From Lepidurus packardi (lineage: Eukaryota; Arthropoda; Branchiopoda; Notostraca; Triopsidae), in assembly GCA_023053545.1 (NCBI GenBank), contig JAKZAN010000006.1, positions 5,833,001 through 5,897,000 on the forward strand: 64,000 nucleotides of DNA. Reading direction: 5' to 3'. Under the pieces are notes generated by a model. That model had not been told where the DNA came from. It saw only the letters and a list, made by a program, of their open reading frames with translations, and made no database searches. This document shows positions 3,175-64,000 of this stretch, piece by piece. The position numbers and the translations under genes are program-made. Numbering within the stretch: the stretch's first letter is position 1; each line of letters opens with the position of its first letter.

Positions 3175-5936
3175 CTAGGATATTGCACTTTCTATAAGTT
3201 GTCGTACCTGAACTACACTTTCAGACGAGTAAAATAGAGTAAAATTGTTCTCAACATTTTTCACGACAGGTACTGGAAGTGTACATAGGTAAGTTTTCAA
3301 AGGGTGATAGCCGTGTTGGTGTACATTACATTCTTTGATTTCTTCAGTGTCCATATCGAATGTATACCATGTACATAGGGCTCCCATATTACTTTCATTA
3401 ATTGGGCAACTCAAATCGATGAACTTCTTTTTTTTTTGTATCTACTTGCAAAAAGCCGAAGCCCAGAACGCGTCCTAAGAGTACCATCGATGGTTTAGTA
3501 AATCTTTTCCCTTTATGTTCTCTAAAGGCACACCATTCTCCAACTCGAATCTCATCTTCTTTCCGAGGGATTCTAGAATTATAGTTTCTTTTTCCCAGTC
3601 TGGATACCAGGCTTGCCTGAGTAACACGGGTAATTCTATCATTACTCAAGCGGACACAGTCACTCGACAAATACCAGCACAGGGTGCGCTTCTTAACGAC
3701 TTTAAAGTCATCCCCTACAGGAATCTTGAGGAAAGGAGAACGAGCGTCTATCGCGGTATTCGAAGGCTGCTCCGTTAGACTACTTCCTCCGAATTCCCGT
3801 ACTTGAATCTTACTTAGCGAAGCAAGTAACGCAAGGTCTATGTCGTCGTCATCCTCGATCGTCTCTATTGAACTGATAGCTTCACCTGCTTCGAGTCTCT
3901 CCGTTTCTTCGTCTTCAAATATGCCATAAGTGGAATCATCAGCAGGTGGCGAGGAATATTGCAGTTTCCTGTCAAAATCCACCTTCGTTTCAGGATGTTC
4001 TATGTCGAAAGAAACACCTAAGCACTCCAAATCATGCTCACTGTCACGCATGGCTTTGCAAGCTACAGCTTCGATTTCTACGTCTGTCGGCAGAATTTTA
4101 GAATTTTTTTCACTTAACTGACCGTATTTCTTCTTGTGGCGCTCAAACGTTGGGTAAGTAATGCCGTCTTTTTCACTGGTTGAATGAAGGAGCAGGGTGC
4201 AATCAATTTTTTTACAACGCGAGGTAATAAAATCCTTAAGCGAAAAATTCACCTGACTTGTACCAGTAGTTGAGCACGCCCTAGCTGACCTGAAAAACTG
4301 CTCACAAGGCTGACTGCTCATGCAATGCGGCAAAAATAGATGATGCCTCTTGGTATCACGAAGTTTCCTGATGATTAGAATCAAGCTGTGAGCATTGATT
4401 TCGGCGCACAAATAAATGTTCAATGTGACAAAATTATCCTGAAGGGAATACACTTTATCACATTGCATCCATTTGCGCCAAAGTCTCAATCCGAAAACTA
4501 CGTACCAAATTCGGTATATACGTTCGCTTGGATCTAAATCCTTTTCTAGGAAGGCGCTTGTCGAAAAATGCAAGAGCTTTAAGTAAAAGCAAGTGGCCTT
4601 GGAAGTAGCAATGTGAGTTTCTAACAAGGAAACGACATTCGGGCTGCTAATTCTCTCGACGCCGTCGTAGTTCATTTTATCGCGCTGATCAAGATCACGG
4701 TCACGAATGAGATGGACGTCTTTTCCTATTGTCTGACGAAGTTGCTCTATATCGATGGGAGTTGCAATATGATCTCCAAAAGGAAGAATTTTTTCCTTCT
4801 TTAGCAGTCGTACTCGGAATTTTGCTCCCAGGTGTGGACTATCTTGCAAAGGAATTATCTTTGCAAAGGGATTTGCATAAAACCAGCGCCAGCCATTTAA
4901 AACACCACCTGAAAATAAGTTAATGTCAAACCCTTGCAGACCAAGAAATATCTAAAGAATAATTCTTTACAATTGCCACCAAGCTGCAACTCTTGTCTCA
5001 TAAGCTTCATTTCTCGACTGTCCCCATCAGTGGCGTACGTGAGGACCTCGATTCCAGATTGGCACAGTACTTCTGAAACATAGTCTAGTCGTCGTTTGAC
5101 ATCTTCGCTCGTAAAGCGGTTGTTGCTACCAAAAGCGCAAATACAGATAGGGGATGCTCCGATTGCCAACGGCTGCGCCATCACTACGAAAACGTTTGTA
5201 GCAACGTCCAACGTTCTGTACAACAGAACTAAGTCCGCTAGGCTATTTGCTTCATTGATTCCAATTACTGGTACTCCGTTTACTCCGATGGGCAAACTAA
5301 AGCCTATCACTGTGTTTGTCTCAGAGGAGTATTCACGCTTTCCAGTTATACTGGTAGCGTCTTCGGATAACGCAACAACGCAAGGAAAACCGTTATTGTC
5401 TAAGTAGGCTTTCAATTTTTCCACTTGAACCTCTCCTTCTCCAAACGAACGCACGTGCTCATTAACTTTGGCTTCGATTGACCTTGGACTAGGTAAACAG
5501 CCTATCATATTTGTGACAAGCATCTGATAGAGTGTTCTTCCTCCAACAATCCATACGTACGATGCAAACCGTACCAAACTTTCGTCGTCGTATCGAAACC
5601 CATGACGATCTTTCTGGGAATTTCTAACAGCTGAATTTAACAGGCTAACTAGTAAGCTTTGCTGGCTGCCTTTTGCTTGGCATAAGGTAGACAATTGCTT
5701 AACTGAACCAAAGCAATTAGCTATAACGCTGATACGATCTCGCTGTTCCTTACAAAGGTCTCTTAGAAGTACGTTGTCCCGCTCCACTTTCTTTAAAACG
5801 TTTAGCACTTTGTAATATTCGGTTATCCGAGGCTGTAAGCCGTCTCTTTCATCCAGATTTCTTCGCATTTCTTGACGCCTATACACCCGACTATTCCATT
5901 TCACGGGAGCACTGTGGGTCTCAGTAGCTCCCGTTA
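3175..5936 (-). pseudogene. Transposase-like gene body, two exons, frame-broken
   Basis: Exon A ends at 4971 and exon B starts at 4908. They are joined by a 62 bp GTAAAG...TTTTCAG intron that keeps frame (LGGNC | GVLNGWRW). Exon A encodes YVWIVGGRTLYQMLVTNMIG, ALSEDATSITGKREY and YATDGDSREMKLMRQE. Exon B encodes a coil-rich region, then ERIYRIWYVVFGLRLWRKW, YLCAEINAHSL and SSQPCEQFFRSARA. The acidic residues in LSEDATS, ATDGD and CAEINAH are candidates for a DDE-type catalytic triad; this is inference. The long frame stops at 3398. Homologous-looking sequence (MGALCTWYTFD, HQHGYHPLKTYLCTLP) continues in another frame to 3175, across an A10 homopolymer at 3428-3437. The upstream end also lacks an in-frame ATG and abuts the zinc-finger ORF in another frame. 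The superfamily is not identified. Confidence 0.75.
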
Positions 5937-6878
5937 TTAAAAACCCAGCTCCGCTGTGGAGTCTCCATCCAAAATCTCTGTTTCCTCGTCAATATCTATA
6001 TTGACAACTGAGGTAACCTCGTGGTTAGCTTGTGGAGGCGCGGCAATTGCTGCAGAATTGGGTTGGTTATTGACGAAGTAGTTCTTGACAGTGTTGGCAC
6101 GACAGCCACTAATTTCGCCCATCTTTCTATCATGTTTCTGTGAAAGATGCCGCGTAACGGATCCGAAATTCCAATAAAGACCGTTCTTTATTCTTAAACA
6201 ACTGAAGTTTGTCTTACATCGCAGACACTTAATAGGTATTAACTTTTTGCCTAATGCATCTTCTTCACTTGGAAATTCAAGATCTTCCGAAGCAAATGAC
6301 AGCTCTTCTATGTGGCTTTCAATCCATGCAGTTACCTTTTTAATAAGTAAGGGAACTGTCGCAGGCTGTGACGTAAGATTAGGTGCGGTACCAGACGGAC
6401 CAGCAACTCCCGAGACTTCCGCCAAGTTTTGCATAGAAGGTTGGTAAGCTTCTGAATTTCCTGTGTTTTTCGGCACTGCTTGAAGGCGGGGCTTTTTTGC
6501 CAAAGGCTTAGCTAATATTTCAAAACCGGCACTTTTTTTCTTTCCGTATTCTATGGCACGTTTCAACTGGGCCAATTCGCCGCCTAAAATTTCAAATTCT
6601 TCTGGAGTGTCACAAAAAAAGTCTCCAAAAACTCTTTTTCGGTCTTCTTCCGACTTACTAGCCCATCGCTTTACTAGTTTTGTCCTTGCAAAAGCTTCCA
6701 TCTGTTTCAAAGCGTCAGTATCTATCTCCGCGACTGTTTCCCAGGTACAGTAACCCAAAGTTTTTAGGAGTTCAGCTATGTGTGGGCGTAGATTGCCCAA
6801 CTTAATTAATTCCTGAAGGAATCGCTGTTCGCTGGTTAACTCCGGATCATCCGCCAGTGTTTCTACGGTTTCCGACAT
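5937..6878 (-). CDS. Transposon-encoded BED-like zinc-finger ORF
   Basis: A 313-codon ORF runs from the ATG at 6878 to a TAA at 5937. The N-terminal half is helical and acidic (LTSEQRFLQELIKLGNLRP). A basic stretch GKKKSAGFEILAKPLAKKPR may be a nuclear signal. A finger follows with spacing C-x2-C-x22-H-x4-H (CLRCKTNF ... RHLSQKHD), which resembles BED/C2H2 DNA-binding fingers. It lies directly upstream of the transposase body in a different frame, with no intron of plausible size between them. It may be the N-terminus of one transposase split by a frameshift, or a separate DNA-binding ORF. Confidence 0.7.
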   Translation of the reverse strand: MSETVETLADDPELTSEQRFLQELIKLGNLRPHIAELLKTLGYCTWETVAEIDTDALKQMEAFARTKLVKRWASKSEEDRKRVFGDFFCDTPEEFEILGGELAQLKRAIEYGKKKSAGFEILAKPLAKKPRLQAVPKNTGNSEAYQPSMQNLAEVSGVAGPSGTAPNLTSQPATVPLLIKKVTAWIESHIEELSFASEDLEFPSEEDALGKKLIPIKCLRCKTNFSCLRIKNGLYWNFGSVTRHLSQKHDRKMGEISGCRANTVKNYFVNNQPNSAAIAAPPQANHEVTSVVNIDIDEETEILDGDSTAELGF

Positions 6879-7139
6879 TGCTATGTAATTCCAATCTGCA
6901 CTATGTTCTAAGACGTTCTTTCTCAGACTGAGCTCAGAATAACGCAAAGCCAAACTCAACAATTTTTCTGTGTTATGACTCGTTTTTGAAAGGGGAAGCC
7001 TCGATCTGCAAGAAGTTGGAAACTTTTTACTTCTTTACTTTCCCACGCGGTATACCGGATGTTTCAAACGAGAGCTCTCGCTGGAGCCCTCGCTCGTTGG
7101 ACCTTTTTTTACTTTTTTTCACTACAGCGAACAGGTATA

Positions 7140-7440
7140 GAGTTTCGGTTTAAACTCTAGGTTAAACTCAGTTAAACTCCGTTAAACTCTGTTGAACTCC
7201 GTTAAACTCTGTTAAACTCTGTTAAACTCTGTTAAACTCTCGGTTAAACTCAGTTAAACTCCGTTAAACTGTTAAACTCTCGGTTAAACTCAGTTAAACT
7301 CCGTTAAACTCTGCTAAACTCTGTTAAACTCTGTTAAACTCAGTTAAACACAGAGTTGCATGGTTAAAATGTTAAACTTAGTTAAACTGTTCAGTTAAAA
7401 AGCTAAAACAAGTTATACTCGTTAAAAATTTCAACATTTT
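7140..7440. repeat. Right subterminal GTTAAACTC array
   Basis: About twenty near-perfect copies of a 10 bp unit GTTAAACTCT/C occur here, some joined as CGGTTAAACTCAGTTAAACT. This is far more regular than the left array, so the two ends are not symmetrical. Probably protein-binding sites for the transposase (inferred). Confidence 0.9.
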
Positions 7441-7474
7441 TAGCTGAATGGTCAGGGTGTACGAAGTTAAACAC

Positions 7475-7491
7475 GAGTTGCGAACCCCTTG
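7475..7491 (-). repeat. Right terminal inverted repeat of the transposon
   Basis: GAGTTGCGAACCCCTTG, the complement of the left terminus with one mismatch. It is followed directly by the target duplication TATCTATT at 7492-7499. Confidence 0.93.
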
Positions 7492-7499
7492 TATCTATT

Positions 7500-9208
7500 G
7501 GTGCAACCGGTGACAGTAGGGAGACTAAAGCTCTCGTGAGATGATCATTGGACCGCGACTTCTTAGTCATAGGAACAAGATACTATACAAGTCAACTCTT
7601 TAAGTGTAAACAGACGTTTAAATGCAGACGATGATTCTTATTGGCTGGATCACGGTTTCATAATCCGTATGGCCCTTCCTGAATAGACCGTAGTTGCTCA
7701 TCTGTAGATTCGAAGCAAAATGGAAGAGGCTAAGACCGAACGAAAAATAAGAGGCGAAGTAAGGGACTAATAAAAAGTAAGGGGCTAATACTACAAGGCT
7801 CCGGATAGGGGTTCACTATTTTGTCCCATTCAGTTCGCTTTATATTGTTTAATACATAAATTCATTGTAGCGTTGATATGCTTGCTGGCATTGACAGGCC
7901 GGAGTAACGATACGGCCCCCGGCCTAACGTTAGGGGAAACGTCGGTAACTTTTTTGTAGACAAGAAACTGCGTTATTACTTCCTAAATAGTAACACTTTA
8001 ATGTGGTCGTGTTTTCTTTTCCTTGGAAGAATTAAAAGCTTTTTTCCCATCTGAAAGTCTATTTTCAGAAATAACATTTATGATTTTGGTGTACAGTTTA
8101 TTTTTTTTTTGTATTTCTTAAAATGTGCATTGATCCCACAAAACTCACTACTTTATCCATTTATCACTACGTAACGGATTCTAAAAGGATATTCAGATTA
8201 ACGTGCGTAAAAGTTTCGATCAAAGTTTGACAAGTAATAAAGAAACAGCACCCCAAAATTTCGTAAAACAACACAGAAACAGAAACAACCCTATAGAAAA
8301 TAAAACAATCCGGGTTTCCAAGCTCGGACACTTTAGAGATTCTTTAGTTGAAGCGAATTAGTCCAAAACGTAAAGAGCATTCAGCGCAATATGGCAGGCG
8401 TTAACTCCGCCGCTTGAGGTAAAAGTACCCGCCCATACCCCAGTCGGCTCCAAACCAGTCGCTGCGAAGAATCCAGACCTTGACGCCATTTTTTTTACGG
8501 TACCCAACCACCATCACGCTACTTATCAATATCAGATTTCCCGACGTTATCTAGAATTTTTTTAGTTTAAAAAAGTCAAAATTTTAGCCCTGAAAGTTGT
8601 CTCTTCCATAAATAAGCATAAACAAGCTATTCTAAATTTTATAATAACTCACACTCGAAAGATCCGTTATGCAAACTTTCTCATGGTCAAGAATTCCAGA
8701 CCTAGAAAACAGTGAGTAAAACATTTGAGTCCAATATCCCCGAAGAAACCTGTCGACTTACTTGTAGTCCATCAGATCAGTGTTCCCTGCATTAAATACA
8801 GAAAGGTACTCCGTTTTGAAGTACAAGGTAGCAATAATGGGTTGTCCTCGCTTGGCCAAGATTTTAGCCATCTTATGCTCTTTATTTTGCTTGATGGTTC
8901 TATAACCTTTTTTGAACTGGAACACTGTGACGGAATTGGAATGTTCACAACCAGTTGGTTCTGGTAAAATCGTGCCCTCTTTCTAATAGAAATGGAAAGT
9001 AAAAAAATTCTAGAACGGATTGGCTTTGAATCCAGCTTTTTCTTCCAGTTTCGATTAAAGAACAGCTTACCCCTGCTAGCAACACGTTATCCGGATTTAG
9101 TTACCAACGTACGTAATGTATCCCGGAGTTAAAAGTTTACACTAGTGTGTCACTGTCTAACAATGAATTTTTATTTTTTTCAGCTGGTGGAGTGAAAGTG
9201 CAAGTTTT
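7500..9208. other. Gene-free region right of the transposon
   Basis: AT-rich sequence with scattered homopolymers. No exon, RNA gene or internal repeat could be supported. An open frame at 8725-8967 has no recognisable content. Confidence 0.5.
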
Positions 9209-9244
9209 AACGTTTCTCATCAACTTTCGTTGATGAGAATCGTT
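9209..9244. repeat. 16 bp inverted repeat (hairpin) beside the CCTAA array
   Basis: Arms at 9209-9224 (AACGTTTCTCATCAAC) and 9229-9244 pair at 15 of 16 positions around a TTTC loop. It directly abuts the telomere-like repeat. Function unknown. Confidence 0.8.
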
Positions 9245-9353
9245 AACCTAACCTAATCTAACCTAATCTAACCTAAGCAAACCTATAACCTAACCTCTAA
9301 CCTAAGCTAACCTAACCTCAGCTAACCTAACCTATCCTAACCTAACCTAAACT
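9243..9353 (-). repeat. Interstitial telomere-like (CCTAA)n array, degenerate
   Basis: Repeated CCTAA/AACCT units with point changes (CCTAATCTAA, CCTAAGCAAA) occur for about 110 bp. CCTAA is the complement of TTAGG, the ancestral arthropod telomere unit. The degeneracy and flanking unique sequence indicate an internal remnant rather than a chromosome end. Confidence 0.85.
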
Positions 9354-9471
9354 AATTCATTTCCAATCCAACAACAATTTTCAACTCGAGTTACACCCAT
9401 TTGTCATTCTTTTCCGGAGAACGTTTTGCAACAATAATACACATTAGTGTCAATTTATCAGTGTTGCTATT

Positions 9472-9650
9472 GGTACCACCGGAGGTGCCGTAGCGTTATG
9501 AGTTTACTCCGAAAGTGTAAGGATTTTTGCCTATAATGTACGGACGCATGTCTAGTAGTATGGAAGAATTGGTGTAGTGGGCAGAGGCAACTACTGATAC
9601 AACGGTGGAGAGGGTTCGATTCCATTCATGGGCAGTTTTTTTCTTGTATT
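9472..9650 (+). mobile_element. tRNA-related SINE, copy 1
   Basis: The unit starts GGTACCACCGGAGGTGC. It contains a good polymerase III A box (TGGTGTAGTGGGC, about 9570) and B box (GGTTCGATTCC, about 9613) about 45 bp apart, then TGGGCAG and a T-run like a Pol III terminator. Related copies lie at 9701-9890 and 10046-10220. No complementary acceptor stem is seen, so it is a tRNA-derived SINE rather than a tRNA gene. Confidence 0.75.
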
Positions 9651-9700
9651 ATTTTAAATTATCCTGCATTTAAATTATTATGTGTTTTACTTGTTCTGTA

Positions 9701-9890
9701 GGTGCGGTATCGTTATGAGTTTACTCAATTAGTGCAAGGATTTTTGCTTATAATGTACGGGCGGGCGCATGTCTATTAGTATGCAATTATAATACTATTA
9801 GTCTTGCATACTAATACTTTACCATTTAACTAATGATACGATGGTGGAGAGGGTTCGATTCTCTCAGTGGGCAATTATTTTTTTCTTGTA
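9701..9890 (+). mobile_element. tRNA-related SINE, copy 2 (A box replaced)
   Basis: It shares GTGCGGTATCGTTATGAGTTTACTC-type head sequence and the tail GGAGAGGGTTCGATTCTCTC with copy 1. The T-stem GAGAG/CTCTC is perfect, and GTGGGCA and a T-run follow. The A-box part is missing and a perfect 13 bp inverted repeat (9774-9786 and 9804-9816) sits in its place, so this copy is probably transcriptionally dead. Confidence 0.7.
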
Positions 9891-10045
9891 CTATGGTACG
9901 AGACATTTTTTCTTAGCTATTTCGTTTTAAATTATTCTGTATCTTTAATTTTTTCTTATTTTAATTATTTTACATTATTCTGCACCTCAGTTATTCTGTG
10001 TTTTACTTGTTATGTTTTAAGAAGAGTTACTCGAAATGTGTAAGT

Positions 10046-10220
10046 GGTACCACCGGAGGTGCAGCAGTCCTGCTGGTTGACTCCAACTATGAAAGGATTA
10101 TTGTTTTTAATGTAACGCGCGCCTACAACGTATATCTGAAGAAGTGGTGTAGTGCGCAAACGCACATGGTTCCACCATGGAGGAGAGGGGTCAAACTCTC
10201 CGTGGGCAAATTTTTTCTTC
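10046..10220 (+). mobile_element. tRNA-related SINE, copy 3
   Basis: It starts GGTACCACCGGAGGTGC like copy 1, with A-box region TGGTGTAGTGCGC. The B-box region is GGGGTCAAACTC within a perfect GGAGAG/CTCTCC stem, then GTGGGCA and a T-run. The B box is altered (GTCAAAC for GTTCGAT). The sequence between copies (TGTGTTTTACTTGTT) is also shared, so part of the spread was by tandem duplication. Confidence 0.7.
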
Positions 10221-11050
10221 TACCATGGGATTTTCATGTTTGTCTTTCTCTCCAAACTCCCTGCGGCGCGGTGGTGCTGGTCCCAAAAACACACTTAAAC
10301 GACGAGTAGTCAGAGCTTATACCTTCTGTTTGCTGGTCCGCCATTTCTCTATCAGGGTTGGGAACGTTATGAGCTCGCAAAAAGGAGTACATAAGGCTTG
10401 AAGCGGAGCCTAGTCTTGTAGTCGACCAATATGTAACGTTTTTATTTCCCTCCGTCTCCAGCAAACTTCTACATAGGGTGAGTTTCGACAACTTTTACTC
10501 ATCTCACGGTAACACTGAGGTCCTCGCCGAGCGTCCGAGTTGTTCCTCAAAGCTCATAAATCTGAAGCGCTTATGACAGGCGAGGAGCAAACTTGGTAGA
10601 AGACCTTTTGCGTTCTATGCCGGTGTTCGTATCTCTCTGGGAGCAACAACGTTTTGACTTCCTTGACTCGTCATTTCCCATACTTTTCAGCAACGACAAC
10701 TACCACTAGTTTTTCTGTATAAGTCATGCAAAAGTTCATTTAGTTATACTTCTTTATTTCGCTAGTGTGAAAACTACGCACATAAATTCTATGGGCTGAT
10801 GAGCAAACAATCAAATAACTTTATTACGAAAAAATACAAAAATAAGACAATATAACACCCATGAATATAGATGTATATCATCGATAAATCAATTCAACTC
10901 ATTGACAAACAAATACGTTAAACAGATGCAAAACAATCAATTATTTTCATATTACGTCGTGGACAGGTTTATTCTGCTATGACGTCTCCCGGTTACTTTT
11001 CATATGACGTCATAGCGGCTTAAACAGCTGCCAAGGGGGCTTGGCCATGC
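10221..11050. other. Gene-free spacer
   Basis: No exon or RNA gene is supported. Short overlapping open frames at 10177-10491 overlap SINE copy 3 and have no recognisable domain. Confidence 0.5.
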
Positions 11051-16244: not shown

Positions 16245-18852
16245 TTAAATAGACAGAAACATTTTTTTACGGTAAAGGATAAAGGAAATTATTATCCATA
16301 GCACCGTTCCTGTCGCGTTCATGAAAAGATGGGCAGCATGAGTTTCTGGGGTTGGGGACCAACTCCAAGGAAACATGTCTCGTGTTATTTCGTGACCGAC
16401 GTACAAAACAATTGGATTGGTACCTAATCAAAACCGTACATTTCTATAATTAAACGCTCTTAGTACTTTTTTTTTTTACCGGGATAGCGAATAGGAGCTC
16501 CGGACCATAACTTGCACACATCAATAATAGTGTAGAAAAGGGCCATTAAAATGAACGCAATACTGGACGTTACAAGCACGAAAGATAAGGACCACAAATT
16601 TTTGTTCACTGGAATGATTCCTTCCTCCTTGCTAAAGCCACACAAGGTTCCTCCGATCAACCCCTAATATAAGCAAACAATGTTACAAAAGATGCCTAAC
16701 TAATAATAAACAACATAAAAACTTACATAGAAGATTCCGCAAATTATCCATCTATAAATACGCTCACGATTCGACTGGTAGGTCAAAAGAATCCTACCCG
16801 CTTGGACTCCCAAATACACAACGAAGACTGAATTGAAAGACCCCAAAAAACCTAAAATAATCGAATGTTGCTGAAAATCTCAACAGCTGACATTTGGTCG
16901 TACCTTCCGGGTCATAAGGTTCGCGAGTCCCATAAACGTTACTACAAGTAGGCCTTTGGTAAATGTGGTTAGGTCCAAACAGTTGTTTGTCAATATAACC
17001 GGCTGCGCCACCAGTGCAACGGCTGTAACCAGCCTGGTCGTGCAGTCCTCCCGGTCCTAAGTATCCCCTGTCAAAAAAACAAAGATAAACGAGAAGGCTA
17101 GAAAGGGAACTCGAGAAGACATTCTTACGTTGGGCAACCAGGAATGGGGAGCAAGAAGGAGACTAACGTATGGCACGCCACCAAGAGTAGAACAATCGCC
17201 CACTGTGCCCAGGCGGCAATCAAATCACGTACGAAAGCCCATCGCTGAAATTATACATATTTAATGGAAAAAGATACAGCAAAGCATTCAGAACTTACTC
17301 TGTAGACATCTTCTGCATGAGATAACCAGGCTTCTAAGGAGCCGACTATGAAATAAGACAAAGCGAAGCGTTGCAAGACACCGGGAATGCGCAAAGTAGA
17401 CAAGTCATTCTTGCCATCCGTGTTCAGGATTACGCCAAGCGCAAATAAAATGGCTGACCTCCTGGTCACACTGCCAAGTATTTGATACCGAGGTTTTGCT
17501 CTTCTTAATTGCGATCGCATAGAGATGGCCAAACTAACTCCCATAACCCACATAAACCTATCAATGAAATTTTCCTGAAACGGTTTTAACTACAGTCTTC
17601 ATGCAGAAATACCATGGGAAGACGACATCAGCAATGGTCAATCCATTCCAAGGAGCATGCTTGAAAATCCAGTACTTTCCTCCCCCATAATCGACAAATA
17701 TCATCAGAATGACTGAAAGACTGACGTCAAGATCTAAGTAAGTAAACCTACGTTTTTAATTGTTTTTAGTGGTTCTTACCCCCGCAATGCATCTAATGAG
17801 CGGACACGTCGTACCGTCGGAGGACGCGTAGGCTGACCAACTGGCCGAACCAAAGGCGTGGTTTCCGATGGAGACGCAGACTGTATGTTGGACTACAGAG
17901 TGAAAAAACGTCTTATATTCTATAATGATAATAGCTAGAAACGCTCATTGCTAAAATCAATAACAATAATATACAGCTTTTGTGATCGTTCAAACTTACA
18001 TTTTCTATCTCGTTTGATCTTACCCATCTCCAAAAAATTCGCCGGTCCCTTAGGATGCACAAGAAACCCCACATTATCACAGTGCAAAGGAAAATTAAAC
18101 TCATCCAAAGCAGGGCTAGAAAATGGGAAAAAAGGATTTTCGTTTCATGCAGAAATACCTAGGCTGTGTGGGCTTACGGTAATATATATTGGCCGGTCGA
18201 ATCACGTTTTCGAGAACGGAGCAAGAGGTATCTGAAGCATTTATCCTGTACAAACCATACTCGCCAAAGTGATGCGAAAACCTGCAATATAAACGTAAAT
18301 ACAGACTATCTATCTAGGATCAATAATAGATAGTTTTTTGCTTTGCTGATAGTAAAAACTTATTGCTACCTGCAGACTCCTTTTCCATGAATTGTTAAGT
18401 ACAGCAGCGAGCTGTATGTGGTATTCATAACTAGACTGATAGTTTGGCCAGGGATGACCTTGGCTATTTTCCATAGGGGGCACTATGAAAAATATCATAA
18501 CTTGCTTGACCGATGTAGCGAAATTTGTAAGTAGTTTACCCCATAACACTCGGAAGACTGGCTCCAAATATCAAAGGTGGAATTTTTTCCTTCGTGTTGT
18601 AACTGCAGGCAAGCCTCATCCAACTTTAACAAAGTTGCTGACGTAGAACCATTGCACCAAATACGTTCTTCCATGTCATATGATGACATAAATTCCCAAG
18701 ACGTAGGCAAAGAGTGGAAATACAAGGGGGCTGCTCCAGCTATCAAGAGTGAACTGTATTACAAAGATAAATAACAGTTTATTTAATCAAGGTTTACCAA
18801 CTAGCACCACTAATAGAGCTACCCGAAGTCCACAAATCTCTTCACGATTCAT
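16245..18852 (-). CDS. HGSNAT: Heparan-alpha-glucosaminide N-acetyltransferase
   Basis: Thirteen exons (18852-18798, 18739-18540, 18482-18370, 18281-18178, 18115-18000, 17892-17780, 17720-17613, 17557-17299, 17244-17129, 17067-16904, 16851-16727, 16663-16480, 16423-16245) give 611 residues. Signal peptide [20 protein letters not shown]; lumenal domain with LKLDEACL and FGEYGLYRI; then [29 protein letters not shown] (the His of FKHAPWNG, about residue 255, corresponds to the acetylated catalytic His), VRIPGVLQR-like [45 protein letters not shown] and C-terminal [16 protein letters not shown]. In the family this lysosomal enzyme moves an acetyl group from cytosolic acetyl-CoA to terminal glucosamine of heparan sulfate. 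All key motifs are intact. Confidence 0.96.
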
Positions 18853-55216: not shown

Positions 55217-58200
55217 ATGCCCGTGGAGAAGTTTGAAAAAAATGAGGAAACAACAACAGTTCGAATTACAGCTAAAGTGGAAGATTTGGAAGCCCAAAGG
55301 CACGAAGTGGAAGAGTACTTTGCTAAAAAGTTACTGGAAAGCAAAGAGAAATACTATGACTGCGTGGCCGAGCTGTTCTTTTTGGAAAATGGAGGCAACA
55401 TGATGGACTTTCTATCCTGGAAGAAGAAGCGGACACCTCTTTACCTTTCTTACCTGAAACAACATGAACTTGTTGAGCACGATGAGGACATTCGCGTTTC
55501 CTCCAACACCATACCTGTTGATTCAACGCCCAAACCTATAATTATTCCACAGTCTCTTGTAAAAGGTAAAGCAAATATCGAACAGCAAATTTCTTGGTCG
55601 TAATGTTTTGTATTCTTTTTTTTTTTTTAGAAACCAATCCCGCTTCACCTTCTAAATCTCAAGATGTTGCGTCTCCGTCCATTCCAAGTAGTACTCCAGT
55701 CACTCCTTTAGTTCCAAATGTGGAAACTTCAACAACTCCCATACCCTCCACTCCTGCAGCTGCTCCGCCTGGAATAGCTAGCCGCAGCTTACCTTTCCGG
55801 ACGCCTGGGCCAAATCCCGTTGGGAGGCCAGCCTCGGTACTTACACCCGAACAAATAGTGGAAAAGGCCAAACAGGTAAAAAAGAACCTAAATTATCTTA
55901 ACACTAACCTTGGCTAAGTTAGGCTAGCTATTTTTCAACTTTATCCCCATGAGGATTTCATAGATAACGAGTCTGACTTTGTTGGAGACGAAAACGAGGC
56001 ATTTGTCTGAGGGATTTTAGCTTTTGTAGAAATTTTTATTTATTTATTAGAAATATAGTGATATGTTCTTTACTAATTTTTGGTATTTACTTTTTAAGGA
56101 AGCGTTTGTTATGCAGAGAATATCCGAATTGCAGCGAGAAGGTTTATGGTCTGAAAAACGTCTACCCAAAGTTCAAGAACCTGCCAGGCCCAAGTGTCAC
56201 TGGGATTATCTGCTGGAAGAGATGGTTTGGTTGGCAGCAGACTTCGCTCAAGAACGCAAGTGGAAAAAAGCGGCTGCCAGGAAGGTAGTTGCATTTTCTC
56301 CCATGTATCATGTTCTCAAGTATTTTTTGTTTTTCTGTGTTGCAGTGTGCCCGTATGGTTCAGAAGCATTTCCAAGAGAAAGCTGCTGCTGCCCTCAAGG
56401 CTGAGAGAGAGGAAGAGTTACGTCTGAAAAAGATCGCTAACTTGATGGCGAAGGAAATCAAGAACTTCTGGAACAACGCCGAAAAAGTACGTATTTGGAA
56501 TTCTTTTCTTGTTAGGTAGTTCTGGTTCTGTAGCCCTTTGATGATTTTGATGACGAGTCAGACTTCTTTGGTGACAAATCGAGGCATTTGTCTGAGGGGA
56601 TTATTTCAACAAATTGTTTAAATTTACATGCTTTTAGTGGTTTAGACAAATTACTAATGGTGTATCTTATTATTTTTAGTTCTTGGAGTATAAACAAAAC
56701 ACTTTACTCGAGGAAAAACGTAAGCAGGCTCTGGACCAGACACTAAATTTCATTGTGTTTGAGACTGAGAAGTATTCATCGTGGTTAGCAGAAGGTATTG
56801 GTGGCAATGTGAAACAACCATCGCAGTCTATTCAAGCCTCGCAGGAACCTGAAGATCGGTTATCTGATGGTAAGTGCAATCATTAATTAAAAGTTTGCGT
56901 TCTTCGATTAGGAGAAAGGTTTTTGAGGAATGTTGCATCCCTATGATGATTTCAGATGACGAGTCAGAATTTAGTGTTGACAAACGAGGCATTTGTCTGA
57001 GGGGAATTAGCAGAAGTTGACTTGTGAAGTGGAATGTGCACTGGTATAGACTAAGGAATTTTGATTTTTCTCAGGCGAGTTTGAACCTGCCAGTTCTTCG
57101 TCAGATGATGAAGAGACCATTGCAAAAGCCGAAGAAGAAGAAGACCAAGATGGTAAAAGCGGTTCAAAAAAAAGCGAATTAGATGCGTTGCTCCGAGAAT
57201 CCGATTTGCCTTTGGAAGACCTTCTAAACGAGTTACCGCCCGGCTATTTGGATGCAATTGAAGGCAAGCCAAGTCAGAAGCAAGAACAACAAGACCCTGA
57301 AGTAGAAGACGATGAGGCGTCAGATGAAGAATTCCAGGCTGATTCTGACGATGAGCCTGACGACGAAGCTACTCTTGAGGAGGAAGAGGCGAAAGGGAGT
57401 GACCAAGATCACCAAGCTGAACTCGCCAAGTTGGAAGAAGAGGGTAATTTGCCTTTGGAAAAGCTTATGGAGAAATATCGACAAAAAGAGGGCGATGATT
57501 TCATCGAAGAAATGAGAGGCAGTTCAGGAAGTAAAAAAAAAAACTTTCCGTTTTATTCCTAGTGAAGATATCTAATCTCGGTTTGCGTTTAGGTGAAACG
57601 GACTCGGATGATGATGAGAGTATGGTGGCAGAAGAAGAGGAAGACGAGGATGAAGAAGAGGAGGATGAGGACTCGGCCAAAGAAAATTCCAAGGATATGG
57701 GTTTGGCCAGCTTGTTTGACGACAGTGCCTCCAGCGGGAATCCTGAAGCTGCGAGTTCCAATCTAAATGACGTAGCCGCTTTGGCTGAAACCTTCCAACC
57801 GAAAGGCAACACCTTGGCTTCAGCTCAGGTAAAAATTGAGAGTTTAAAGGTTTTAACTAGGCGAGGTTAGCACACCCGTTTTATCGTTTGATGAGAAAAT
57901 GGGTGCTATCAATCTCGCAAATTAAACAAACAAGTTTCAGCGTTTTTTCCTTCAAATCTGTACGATTAAATGAATACGCTGAAGCTTGTACAGTTTTGTG
58001 CAGAATGTTTCGTGCTTAGTTAATTTGAGTGAAGGAAGTGTCTTGTAACTTGTTCTTTCTCTTGGTTCAAGGTCCATACCAAAGTTCCCTTTCTCTTGAA
58101 ACTTCCTCTTCGAGAATACCAGCACGTCGGATTGGAATGGCTAGCAACTTTGTACGAAAGAAAGTTGAATGGCATCCTGGCTGATGAGATGGGCTTGGGC

Positions 58201-61200
58201 AAAACCATCCAGACAATCGCATTGCTCGCATGGTTGGCTTGTGAAAAAGGCATTTGGGGCCCGCATCTTGTCGTCGTACCCACTTCGGTCATGTTAAATT
58301 GGGAAATGGAGTTCAAAAAATGGTGCCCAGGTTTCAAGATCTTGACATACTATGGCTCCCAGAAGGACCGTAAATTAAAGCGCACAGGCTGGACCAAACC
58401 CAATGCTTTCCATGTCTGTATTACCTCCTATAAACTCGTCATCCAAGATCACCAAGCTTTTCGAAGAAAACGTTGGAAGTACTTCATTCTCGACGAAGCC
58501 CAGAATATCAAGAACTTCAAGTCGCAACGTTGGCAACTTTTGCTCAACTTCCAAAGCCAAAGGTAATTTTTTTTTTTTTTAAAGGAAGATAATTTTAAAA
58601 AACGTGTTTCAGACGGTTGCTGCTGACAGGCACTCCCTTGCAAAACAACTTGATGGAACTGTGGTCCTTGATGCATTTTCTCATGCCGGACGTGTTTGAA
58701 TCGCATCGGGATTTCCGCGAATGGTTTTCCAACCCAGTTACGGGCATGATAGAAGGTTCCTCAGATTATAACGAATCGGTCATCCGTCGGCTACACAAGG
58801 TTCTAAGGCCTTTTCTCCTTCGTCGTCTGAAAAGCGAAGTAGAGAAGCAATTGCCCCAAAAATACGAACACGTCGTCATGTGCAGGCTTTCAAAACGTCA
58901 GCGCTACTTGTATGACGACTTCATGTCCCGTGCCAAGTAAGTTATATTTTGTTTTTTTACACGTAAGAAAAATATGTCCCACTTACTGCCCCAGTCTTTT
59001 CGCTTCTGGAAATGCTGGGTTTATATTATTTGTGGGAAAAAGCAAACGCATGGAGGCTCAAAACAGCGGAAGTTACTTGTATAGGATTTTCGACACCTGG
59101 GGCATTCAACACTTACATTAAGATTTTTTTTTATACAAGTTCTATTATAAAGTTTTGCTAAAGGTGCTTTGTTTACCAAAATTATAAATTTTACCGTTAT
59201 TTTGTTATAGAACGAGAGAGACGCTATCATCTGGAAACCTGTTGAGTGTTATCAACGTTCTTATGCAATTGCGGAAAGTTTGCAACCATCCTAACCTGTT
59301 TGAAGCGCGCCCTACAATATCTCCCTTCCAGATGCAAGGATTGGTTTGTACTACTGCCTCTTGCGTTTTTGGGGCGCTGGATTATGACCCTTTCAAGGTA
59401 AGAAAGACGTCTTGAAATTCGTTGGGGAAAGCAGTGCTTTTCAGTGTTTTTGTTGTCGTTTACAGCTGAATTAATACCGTTTTCGTTTTTGTCTTAAGCA
59501 AGTGAACCTGTACACTCTCAACCTGTTACTGGCCGAATTGGAGCTGACCTTAACTGCCTTTGCGGCTCATCGTGTGCGGCGTTTCCAAGCCGCTCCTCCC
59601 TTGATCCAAGAAGTCGATTGGAGTGCTAGTCCACCTCCTCGTTGCCCGGCGGGTAAGATACGCTTACACGTCAGAGCGTCGTCGAATGTCCCGCTCATAC
59701 CGGGTGCAGCTCCGATTAACGCACCTGCTGGGATCAAACCTGGTCTATCGACAACTGTACCCGGCACACCTCCAAATACTAGCCAGCTCCAAGCGCGTCT
59801 TGGACCTAGTCCTGCGACAGGCGTTACGGGCTTGAGTGCACCTCAACAACCTCGTTTGGCTTCCCCAGCCCCGTCTTTGCCAGGATCCTCTCCTCAACCA
59901 ACAGCGGCCGCTATTGGTCAGTCTTCTCATGCCATGGGAATCTTGAGAGGTAAACATTGCATAAATTACGCTTTTGTTCTTTAAATTCTCATGATGACTA
60001 ACGAAGGCATGCACCACTCCGAAGGACAATGTAGATTATGCACACCATAAGGTTACTGAAGGACTTGTACTTTTAATCAGTTGGAAAATTTAACTTATTC
60101 CGGATACTAACCAATCCTTTTTTGTATTCTAGGTGCCGCTCCTGGAAATAACGGTGTTTCTCAGTCCTCGGTCAACCCAGGGATATTGCGAGGTAAAAAA
60201 TTTTTCTTATTTCTGAGCCTGGAAATACAATCACCAATTAGCCATAAAAATGATGATTTACAAAAGGCATGCACCACTCCGAAGCGTTGTGACGATTATG
60301 CTCACCATTAGGTTTCTGATTATTTTCACTGTTTTAATTGAAAATTCGTGTTCCTGTAGTTATAAAGAAGTTAATTAGTATTTGCTGGTTAGGTTCTGCG
60401 CCAGGAAACAATGGGATTGCTGGTACGAGTTCCAGTCCGGCAACTAATGGGACAGTCACTGGAATCCGATTAGCTTCCAATGTGAGCTCAGCTGGGTCTA
60501 TGACGTCCTTGACGGTCCAACTTCCGCAGGGTGGAACTACACGGTTAACCTTACCAACCTCCATCGCACAGTTGGTTCAGCCAGGAGGTGGAAATTTGGT
60601 AGCAAGTTTAGGAGGCAGTGGAGCTAGATCTCAGGGAGCCCAACTCAGTTTAACTTCTGGTAAGAACTACTTAATTTTTCACGAATTTTTGGATGAGGAT
60701 GTTGCGCTTTAAGTAGGCGGCGTAGTGTACTTCGGATCGCTACGCTGCTGGACATAAGCGCGAAATAAATTTTCGAGTAGGAAAATTTGACTCATGTTTT
60801 CATTAGAACTGGGTTTTTTCAATTCTTGGACATATTTTCTTATTAACGATGTTCATAGTGGTTACATAGTTCAAACAAACTAACCCTTTGTTGTTGCTTT
60901 CTGTATTAAAATAGTTATGACTTCTGCTGGGCAGCGTTTTGTATTAACTCGTAATCCAGCAGCAGCTCGCAGTACAGCGATACCTCCCACTCCAGGGACG
61001 CCCATTACGCTGCGCGGACAGCCCCCTTCAACACCATTAACAAGATTAGCTGCGACGCAGAGACCCGGAGACACTTCTGCTACTCCCATACCTATTGCCA
61101 AGCCTGAAAACGGCCCCGAGCCTACTGAAACGCTCAGAAGACGAGACAGACACGCGTGGGATAAAAGCGTGTTTAGATTGGTAAGTTGAAATTCTTTTAA

Positions 61201-64000
61201 ATAGGCGTCGCTTATAGTGATCACTGGTTATAAGAATTAGCCGCTTATAGGAATCAAATGTTAAATTACCGATTCAAAATGCTAAAATGTATAGAATTTT
61301 CATCGGTTATTAGAATCACATTTTTGGATATAAGAATCAATTTCAAAAGAATCCTCCCATATTGACTGATGACATTTCTCTTACATCGTTGACTAATCTG
61401 TCATTTCCAGTCTACTACGCCAATGGGGAAATCCCTTCTAAACTCTCCAGTCAATCAAATGAGCAGGTTATTCAATTGAATGACCAGTTCCTTTATCTGA
61501 CTGGGTACGTTAGAAGGGATATCGTGTTTAGAACCCTACCTAAGCGTAGGACTAGTCTTCAGAGTCGCAGTGTTAGTTGCGTTGTGGACAAGTGGTTCCA
61601 TAAAAATGGCGACGAACAAGAAAATTGTTGATTTAAATTTAAAAGAGAAGTTGCGGCTCATTAAAAATTACGACAAGTTAAATCAAAAAGATTTGTCACC
61701 TTTATCTACATATTTCCGATTTTGGGTACAAGCATCAAAATTGGCTAGACAAACGTGATCACTAAGCGACGCCTACTGTAGTTGTTTCAAATGAATTGAT
61801 GCGAAGACGGACTTCTTTATCTTTGGAGGGCGTGAGTCAATTCAACGGCTCTGCTCTCCGACAAAAGGGAAGGAGAGAAAGTGCAACTCTACCAACCTGA
61901 TCTGATTTCGATGTTGGATTGGGGTGCAGAGAAAGCTACATTTTTTTTATATGTTTCACGTATCTGCCGTAGCTTTGAAAGACCGAGAAGTCTTAAGTGA
62001 CTATTTGTATCTGTTACAGCCAAACCTGGAAGACAAGAGAAGGCAGGAGCGACGAGAAAAGCTGGCTTTATTGGCCCGCTTGAACAAACAACGTTGTGCT
62101 GCTTGTCCCATCTATGGTGCGGATCTCATTGAAGCGGTAGCCCACGGGACAAAGACGCCAGCAGCACAGGCCGATCCGGAGCAGTGGCAAGGCTCAGGTG
62201 CGGGCTATGTTCATTGCCTTAAAGCTTTCGAGCCCTTCCGGAGGGCAGATGTCTACCTCACTAGCAGCGATGCACTCCGGCACGCCTTGTTCACTCCAGA
62301 AGAACGCATGGATCAACTTCAGGACACTATTTCCAGGTAGAAAAAATTGTTGGCTTTAGTTTTACGTTTAAGTGCGCCGGGCACGGTATCATCATCATCC
62401 TAGCGCATACAATGCTGTGGCGTGACTTGTATTCCGTGAATAGAAAAAGCAAGCTCCAGCATTCACAAGGATTTATTGACCGTGTGTGCTCGGAGTTTGC
62501 TGACAATTTCGCTTTTGCCATAAACTGGAAATAATGAAGGACTAAATATTTGATGTTTTATAGGTTTGTTTTCTGTGTCCCGCCTGTCAATGCTCCTGTT
62601 ATCCAATTCCACGTATCTCATCCCCAACCTTCCTTATTCTGGCAACACCAGTGCCGTGAAACAGCTCTCAAGCAAGAATTGTTTCCGAAGTGTGGTTTGC
62701 TTCATCCTGTATCATCAGCCATGGTGACGCAGTTCCCAGATCCTAGGCTTATCCAGTATGATTGTGGTAAGCCGATTTGTTGAATTACTTCTCAATATTT
62801 CACACCTGTGGCGCTTTAAAAATAGACAGGATAGTTTGATCAGTCGCTATTCTGTTGAGCAAAGTCGCCAGAGTAAAAGGAATGCCATAACTCCCAGGAC
62901 GGGGCTGTTACATGGCTTGATCTGGGTTTATAGCATTTCGACAACATTAATAAGTTTTTTTTTATTAATATTGAGAAATTAGCGCATTTCTTTGTTGATT
63001 GTGTAGAAGACTAATGACCGGGTTGTTTTCCTATAGGAAAACTGCAAACTTTATCGGTACTTCTGCGGCAATTGAAAGTGGGGAAACATCGTGTGCTACT
63101 TTTCACGCAAATGACGCGCATGTTGGATGTACTGGAATCTTTCCTGGCACACGAGGGCCATCTTTACCTGCGTTTGGACGGCACCACCAAAGTCGACCAG
63201 CGGCAAGCTCTTATGGAGCGTTTTAATGCGGATACTCGTATCTTTGCCTTCATTTTATCCACTCGGTCTGGCGGTGTTGGGGTCAATTTGACTGGCGCAG
63301 ATACCGTTGTATTTTATGACTCAGATTGGAATCCCACAATGGACGCACAGGTGAATTACTTCCGTTTTTTATGTACCCTTTTTTGTTTCATGGTACACGA
63401 AGCACTGATTTTTGGATAGGCAACTTTTAAAAGTGAGATAGTTTCTGTGTTGGTTGCTAGTCAGAAGTTGATGCGCGTTTCACCCCACACTGCTTCAGAA
63501 TGGAGCAAGTGTGTTTTGATTCACGCTAAAGTATGCTGAGGACTCATCTACTGGGGAAATGGGCCCATAACTTCTCAGTCAGTCGTATCTCACACATTTG
63601 CATTAATATCAAGCAATATTTGTATATTTTCATAGTTCATTAAACCTACTGTATTATACTGATTTTTCATTCTGGAATGAGTATGACTTATTTCCTTTCA
63701 GTCCTTTCAAGTACTAGTACTTCAAAAATTTTAATACTTGTGCATTTTTTAGGCTCAAGATCGTTGTCATCGGATTGGTCAGACTCGCGATGTACATATT
63801 TACCGCCTAATTAGTGAGCGCACCGTTGAAGAGAATATCTTAAAGAAGGCCAACCAGAAACGCTTGCTGGGTGATATTGCAATCGAAGGTGGTAATTTTA
63901 CCACTGCACAGTTGAAGAATTCGACCATCCAGGACTTATTCGACGTGGATCAAGAAGAGGCAGATGCTTCCAAACGTATGGCAGAGGTGTTGGATAGACC
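55217..64000 (+). CDS. SRCAP: SRCAP/Domino, SWR1-type chromatin remodelling ATPase, 5' part (runs off the right edge)
   Basis: Eighteen exons fit in frame: 55217-55565, 55631-55875, 56099-56284, 56346-56486, 56680-56869, 57075-57530, 57593-57828, 58072-58562, 58613-58936, 59211-59397, 59499-59949, 60133-60192, 60393-60659, 60915-61180, 62020-62336, 62564-62766, 63037-63350, 63753-64000; 1,643 codons so far. Domains: HSA ([20 protein letters not shown], about residues 231-285, which binds actin-related proteins), a long acidic region (about 370-600), SNF2 ATPase lobe 1 with [24 protein letters not shown] (about 639), DEAQNIKN and [13 protein letters not shown], a Pro/Thr/Gly-rich insertion of about 500 residues, and lobe 2 with [31 protein letters not shown] and [12 protein letters not shown]. 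The split ATPase and HSA define the SWR1/SRCAP class, which exchanges H2A for H2A.Z. Several introns host small RNAs and one a transposon. Confidence 0.96.
55945..56013 (+). ncRNA. Box C/D snoRNA-like, family 1 copy 1 (SRCAP intron 2)
   Basis: Terminal stem CCCC/GGG encloses a degenerate C box ATGAGGA, D' box CTGA, a C'-like TGGAGAC and D box CTGA (56007-56010). The guide before D, ACGAGGCATTTG, is complementary to CAAATGCCTCGT of conserved large-subunit rRNA. The guide before D' (AGATAACGAG) matches the adjoining CTCGTCATCT with one mismatch. This is the weakest of the three copies because of its C box. Confidence 0.7.
56534..56599 (+). ncRNA. Box C/D snoRNA, family 1 copy 2 (SRCAP intron 4)
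   Basis: CCC/GGGG stem, C box TGATGAT (56539-56545), D'-like CAGA, C'-like TGGTGAC and D box CTGA (56592-56595). Guides: CGAGGCATTTG before D and GATGACGAG before D'. Both are complementary to adjoining parts of the same conserved LSU rRNA stretch. About 66 nt, in a 193 bp intron. Confidence 0.85.
56939..57004 (+). ncRNA. Box C/D snoRNA, family 1 copy 3 (SRCAP intron 5)
   Basis: CCCT/GGGG stem, perfect C box ATGATGA (56943-56949), D'-like CAGA, C'-like TGTTGAC and D box CTGA (56997-57000). The guide ACGAGGCATTTG (12 nt) before D and AGATGACGAG (10 nt) before D' are complementary to CAAATGCCTCGT and CTCGTCATCT, which overlap in LSU rRNA. This is the best-formed copy. Confidence 0.88.
59991..60059 (+). 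ncRNA. Box C/D snoRNA-like, family 2 copy 1 (SRCAP intron 11)
   Basis: C box ATGATGA at 59991-59997, D'-like CCGA, C'-like GTAGAT and D box CTGA at 60056-60059. The guide before D', CATGCACCAC, is complementary to GTGGTGCATG of small-subunit rRNA. The second guide (CACCATAAGGTTA) was not matched. It resembles animal U32/U33-type guides in its target. Confidence 0.7.
60250..60319 (+). ncRNA. Box C/D snoRNA-like, family 2 copy 2 (SRCAP intron 12)
   Basis: C box ATGATGA at 60250-60256 and D box CTGA at 60316-60319. It shares AAGGCATGCACCACTCCGAAG and GATTATG with copy 1 and so has the same 10 nt complementarity to SSU rRNA. Conservation of boxes and guide against diverged flanks supports a functional RNA. 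Confidence 0.72.
60702..60764 (+). ncRNA. H/ACA-like hairpin (SRCAP intron 13)
   Basis: Lower stem TTGCGCTT/AAGCGCGAA (one bulge), an internal loop of TAAGTAG facing TGGACAT, upper stem GCGGCGTAG/CTACGCTGC (9 bp with one G-T) and a 14 nt loop. Directly after the stem comes AAATAA, which fits the H box ANANNA. This is the layout of a pseudouridylation-guide hairpin. A convincing second hairpin with an ACA tail was not found, so the class is tentative. Confidence 0.5.
61204..61773 (+). mobile_element. Pogo/Tigger-like short element in SRCAP intron 14
   Basis: Termini GGCGTCGCTTATAGTGATCAC and GTGATCACTAAGCGACGCC are inverted repeats (2-base indel), flanked by TA on both sides (61202-61203 and 61774-61775), the Tc1/mariner/pogo target. 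A 50-codon ORF at 61606-61758 begins [20 protein letters not shown], like the N-terminal Psq/CENP-B-type helix-turn-helix of Tigger transposases, and then stops. It is thus a 570 bp deletion derivative and not autonomous. It lies wholly within the intron. Confidence 0.85.

Follow-up and report, generated by a model that had tools for sequence, protein, structure and literature searches.

Host gene and its introns

The window analysed here, a 64,000-nt stretch of the Lepidurus packardi genome, carries on its forward strand, from 55217 to the window's end at 64000, a gene for an SNF2-family remodeller of the SRCAP/EP400 (Domino-like) type, identified from a spliced model, Pfam domains and a PDB match. 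The model comprises 18 introns and one reading frame without internal stop, which extends from 55217 past the window to approximately 65528 on the same contig. The Pfam search covered two parts of the protein: the first 984 residues contain EP400_N, HSA and SNF2-rel_dom, and Helicase_C lies in the later part. A 737-residue part of the protein has helicase SRCAP as its best PDB match (851 bits), followed by p400 (524 bits). The HSA domain, the split SNF2 ATPase with a long insertion and SRCAP as the nearest ATPase place the protein in the SRCAP/EP400 (Domino) group, in agreement with a first-pass annotation that had put three snoRNAs in introns 2, 4 and 5 of an SRCAP-type gene; we take it to be an invertebrate Domino-like gene.

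Two further features of the gene were observed. In the 9.9 kb stretch covering the rest of the gene (L012), short exon-like stretches continue after the first stop, at approximately 66270–71000 in window coordinates, which suggests a second, longer C-terminal isoform, presumably comparable to fly Domino A and B; an Rfam scan of this stretch returned nothing up to E 1. Intron 14 contains inverted ends at 61202–61222 and 61755–61775 (TAGGCGTCGCTTA.../...TAAGCGACGCCTA) that frame a short reading frame, which to our eye resembles the start of a Tigger/pogo-type transposase, and a diverged copy of this element seems to be present downstream in L012, at approximately 68380–69150 in window coordinates.

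All 13 introns of at least 150 nt harbor a snoRNA-like element: five box C/D RNAs and eight H/ACA-shaped candidates, of which those in introns 7, 9 and 11–18 were absent from the first-pass annotation.

Three U15/snoR75-type box C/D snoRNAs

Introns 2, 4 and 5 each contain a U15/snoR75-type box C/D snoRNA on the forward strand. Copy 1 (intron 2, 55944–56015), supported by a match to Rfam family RF02539 (39.9 bits), the guide scan and the alignment, has the variant C box ATGAGGA (55949–55955), a D' box CTGA (55973–55976) and a D box CTGA (56007–56010). Copy 2 (intron 4, 56533–56600; RF02539, 40.8 bits) has a C box TTGATGA (56538–56544), a D' box CAGA (56559–56562) and a D box CTGA (56592–56595), and copy 3 (intron 5, 56938–57005; RF02539, 51.2 bits) has a C box ATGATGA (56943–56949), a D' box CAGA (56965–56968) and a D box CTGA (56997–57000). 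Against the consensus RTGATGA, the C box of copy 3 is a full match and that of copy 2 has T at the R position. The copies are 72, 68 and 68 nt long including terminal stems of 5, 4 and 5 bp (G-U allowed), so that in each a C box, in copy 1 the variant, and a CTGA D box are joined by a terminal stem.

In a three-row alignment the copies show 88% mean column identity. In the 40 bases on either side, which the first-pass annotation had described as unmatched, each of the three pairs of copies has only 8–15 of 40 positions identical; the blocks are therefore related and the introns are not.

A covariance search, named in the first-pass annotation as a check on these elements, gave a graded answer. 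RF02539 (SNOR75) matches all three copies, with E-values of 1.6e-7, 9.6e-5 and 1.7e-4 in a whole-window search, but only copy 3 passes the gathering score of 50 bits, copies 1 and 2 being significant under a looser threshold. At gathering, copy 3 is the single match of any kind to Rfam in the window. SNORD15 (RF00067) gave one partial match, over copy 2, at 19.8 bits against a gathering score of 75 (E 0.7). Matches elsewhere in the window to Ref66 (61164–61293, E 0.4) and to mir-73 (at 18652, E 2.9) were set aside as chance. Across the 108.6 Mb assembly the RF02539 search reported only the three copies (55 candidates scored, so that three is a lower bound), and a DNA search of the assembly also yielded three. 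A single match to the D guide plus D box in an IMG/VR contig (L022) was likewise attributed to chance, as no C box or D' guide was seen nearby by eye. Together, these boxes, stems and family matches, with the guides described below, provide good support for the proposal of the first-pass annotation that the three elements are real box C/D-type snoRNA genes, here recognised as new members of a known family.

A pattern search of the assembly allowing one mismatch found a fourth U15-like place, at 1451–1528 of locus L028 on a 56 kb contig, C264. It has a C box TTGATGA, a D box CTGA, a D guide TGAGGCATTTGT and a 9 bp terminal stem (by eye); its body differs from that of the three copies, and the RF02539 search did not report it. 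Contig C264 may be foreign DNA, which is a guess.

Guides and their 28S target

Guides were scanned against the rRNA of the same genome, of which the 18S is whole (L023) and the 28S is fragmentary. In copies 1, 2 and 3 the D guide forms 12, 11 and 12 bp with 28S, free of mismatch or wobble; counted upstream from the D box, base five faces the third A of CAAATG. At D', copies 2 and 3 have guides of 9 and 10 bp, in which base five faces the G of CCTCG. In copy 1 the D' guide is broken, its core reading GATAACGAG as against GATGACGAG in the other copies, and contains no run of nine pairs for the scan to list. Against a yardstick of approximately ten or more pairs directly upstream of D or D', the D guides thus lie above it in all three copies and the D' guides lie at or near it in copies 2 and 3. 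The arrangement that characterises the family, D aimed at the A and D' at the G seven nt downstream, is seen in copies 2 and 3; copy 1 has the D half only. Both nucleotides are those that the first-pass annotation had predicted, and its view that the two guides address overlapping parts of one 28S segment holds, for D' in copies 2 and 3. Its description of the elements as three double guides applies to those two copies but not to copy 1, where a mismatch lies inside the D' guide.

Seven loci of the assembly (L004–L010) contain the 18-base target. In L006 and L010 the target is covered by a match to LSU_rRNA_eukarya; the match in L009 starts 91 bases beyond the target, and the remaining four loci yielded no LSU rRNA match at gathering. 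Compared by eye with 28S, all seven loci depart from it just upstream of TAGCC, a junction that we take to be the R2 retrotransposon insertion site; three of them (L005, L007 and L008) also depart from it within approximately 80 bases downstream. The snoRNA target starts three bases inside the TAGCC junction. An inserted element was sought in 8 kb around one 28S target copy, where no open reading frame of at least 200 aa was found. The rDNA unit on contig C1 is a joined stretch of 16301 bases, in which positions 5552–10551, the expected location of 28S, are a run of 5000 N. Because this region reads N and the seven copies leave 28S near the target, an uninterrupted 28S target was not found in the assembly.

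Chance expectation and distance to the splice site

The host introns were scanned for a C box and a D box with a terminal stem of at least 3 bp and a guide of at least ten pairs at D or D'; the scan was designed with the copies in view and allows the C-box variant of copy 1. Five of the 18 introns are positive (2, 4, 5, 11 and 12), compared with a mean of 0.02 and a maximum of one in 100 dinucleotide-shuffled intron sets. The five introns shorter than 150 nt are negative. In the five C/D RNAs the D box ends 88, 84, 74, 73 and 73 nt before the end of the intron. In mammals, a spacing of 70–80 nt is important for splicing-coupled C/D processing; the narrow spacing seen here, near the mammalian range, points to ordinary intronic release.

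Other snoRNA-like elements in the host

The two additional box C/D snoRNAs, also on the forward strand, are directed to 18S rather than 28S. The RNA of intron 11 (59987–60063; RF00300, 23.6 bits, sub-threshold) has its C box at 59991–59997, a D' box CCGA at 60019–60022 and its D box at 60056–60059, and its D' guide forms 11 pairs (one GU) at G1281 of the organism's own 18S. The RNA of intron 12 (60246–60323; RF00300, 33.8 bits, and RF00533, 23.9 bits, both sub-threshold) is a paralogue whose D' guide is likewise directed to 18S G1281. For the D guides of both, no convincing target was found in the organism's own 18S and partial 28S.

H/ACA shapes, defined as two hairpins with an H box (ANANNA) between them and an ACA after, were sought in the 13 larger introns (≥150 nt) and found in eight; in each case, none of 60 shuffles of the same intron reached the score. 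Seven candidates lie in the window, all on the forward strand: in intron 7 (57859–57995, −45.9 kcal/mol; two hairpins, H box AAATTA at 57919, ACA at 57990), intron 9 (58975–59114, −33.7; H box AAAGCA, ACA at 59109), intron 13 (60702–60835, −43.4), intron 14 (61810–61943, −44.6), intron 15 (62364–62508, −44.9), intron 16 (62810–62946, −43.8) and intron 17 (63472–63599, −35.9), the last, which lies 153 nt from the 3' splice site, being the most weakly placed. The eighth, in intron 18, was found by the two-hairpin scan beyond the window. The intron 13 candidate is SNORA14-like, with a match to RF00397 at 31.6 bits (gathering 36; E 0.0074). Among control stretches, 4 of 1054 reached −33.5, one of them attaining −42.8, and one shuffle of intron 5 reached −34.4; because of that shuffle and the −42.8 control, the weaker hits in introns 9, 17 and 18 are individually not secure.

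When the pockets of these candidates were examined for complementarity to possible pseudouridylation sites in the organism's own, incomplete rRNA, one of 16 hairpins, in intron 16, exceeded the best reversed-rRNA control (13.4 against 12.2), and four of 16 found no fit. In the intron 16 candidate, 18S U104 fits the 3' pocket with 14 pairs; in the intron 14 candidate, 18S U36 fits the 5' pocket, in a search whose results were mostly no better than the reversed-rRNA control.

Proposed function and alternative readings

Given the observed sequence, boxes, stems, guides, host and intron placement, the three elements very probably represent box C/D snoRNA genes that belong to the ancient U15/snoR75 type, are encoded in introns and arose by duplication inside a single Domino/SRCAP-family gene; we infer their expression, processing and methylation activity. 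The host pre-mRNA would be spliced, the lariat debranched and the intron trimmed as far as the snoRNP. Pairing of the D guide with 28S CAAATGCCTCG(T) would then direct 2'-O-methylation of the third A, and in copies 2 and 3 pairing of the D' guide with CTCGTCATC(T) would direct methylation of the G seven nt downstream. Since the overlapping sites bar dual occupancy, the A and G marks would have to be placed one after the other or by separate particles. Copy 1 would probably be a single (D) guide or a decaying copy. More broadly, the gene may act as a general snoRNA host, with two C/D RNAs for 18S G1281 and approximately eight H/ACA-shaped RNAs filling its other large introns.

How the copies share this work can be read in more than one way. 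We see an even chance that they are redundant, with multiplication supplying dosage of a single guide and no specialisation among the copies. The D guide core is identical in all three, and multi-copy U15 is found elsewhere: a chicken U15 entry lists three copies in introns 4, 5 and 6 of RPS3 (PMC2653536), and a passage on Arabidopsis U15 mentions multiple gene variants (PMC8053127). The D' guides, however, differ among the copies, and therefore the dosage for A and for G would differ.

A somewhat less probable reading, although a plausible one, is that the working snoRNAs are limited to copies 2 and 3, or to copy 3, with copy 1 as a pseudogene that local duplication has left behind. Its variant C box and D' guide mismatch accord with this, as does the descent of the Rfam scores from copy 3 through copy 2 to copy 1; yet in copy 1 the CTGA D box is intact, the D' box has the canonical CTGA sequence, a terminal stem of 5 bp persists, the D guide still forms all 12 bp, and the distance from the splice site is suitable. 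That the blocks are instead splicing or regulatory elements of the introns, or mobile repeats of recent spread, with rRNA complementarity as a by-product, is scarcely credible and we reject it: recurrence in several introns of the same gene would suit such elements, but the C and D boxes, the terminal stem, the +5 guides, whose target sites are methylated in other eukaryotes, the restriction to three copies and one further U15-like place on C264 in the assembly, and the failure of shuffles to reproduce the blocks all argue against it. Our preferred reading remains that of duplicated, intron-encoded snoRNA genes.

Comparison with known systems

Human chromatin-remodeller genes also host snoRNAs: SNORA30 lies in SRCAP, SNORA49 in EP400 and SNORD8/9 in CHD8. 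The fly gene dom, which we take to belong to the SRCAP/p400 family, offers a parallel at the level of the host, a snoRNA cluster inside a gene that is probably orthologous. A passage of a 2026 preprint names dom among well-characterized snoRNA clusters (PMC13228274), and so the suggestion of the first-pass annotation that a remodeller host for a cluster of rRNA guides is undescribed fails; the Lepidurus gene provides new snoRNA members in a host family already reported with a cluster. In an excerpt of PMC5932544, the fly snoRNA:Me28S-G2596 is named as exonic; it may be a guide for the G. A listing in PMC6685493 places SNORA30 and SRCAP within one region of human chromosome 16. A literature search conducted mostly at surface level found no further statement on SRCAP, EP400 or domino as host, and the words dom and domino are absent from the main text of PMC4430873. 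A bolder proposal, which we consider unlikely but worth stating, is that Domino/SRCAP has been a standing snoRNA nest since early arthropod (or animal) history, its guest families being replaced and multiplied, with an H2A.Z-remodelling ATPase and guides for rRNA modification coupled in one transcript across lineages.

The U15 family, its two-site design and its multiplication in neighbouring introns are already published. In the section of PMC8053127 that treats Arabidopsis U15, the D guide is directed to 25S A2282 and the D' guide to G2289, and one particle serves only one site at a time. The Lepidurus copies share with plant U15 and RF02539 this combination of a D guide for the A with a D' guide for the G seven nt downstream, on an overlapping target, and with the RF02539 alignment the C, D' and D boxes and a short terminal stem; they differ from the RF02539 consensus in being approximately 16 nt shorter after the D' box, and from plant U15 in sitting in introns of a protein-coding animal gene. 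Entries in a table of PMC8817022 assign yeast Am2281 to snR13, yeast Gm2288 to snR75 and human Am3764 to U15, and give no human entry for the G; a table of PMC3511168 makes the same assignments, numbers the yeast sites Am2279 and Gm2286 and gives Arabidopsis U15 for both sites. Vertebrate U15A/B (SNORD15, RF00067) thus guides the equivalent A and, as in the chicken entry, occurs as several copies in neighbouring introns of one host, but it is a longer RNA (146 positions in the Rfam model) hosted by RPS3, and those two tables list no human equivalent of the G mark. In yeast the same two nucleotides are served, but by two separate snoRNAs.

A plant-type, two-site U15 design is thus found in an animal intron, where the tables of PMC8817022 and PMC3511168 give one site for human and two snoRNAs for yeast. 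With five C/D and approximately eight H/ACA candidate snoRNAs annotated precisely in one gene, the locus adds a good new case to a known arrangement and is not a new kind; its value lies in the clean annotation and in the question of an old nest shared with fly. The match with the dom cluster makes the age of this host–guest pairing checkable across arthropod genomes.
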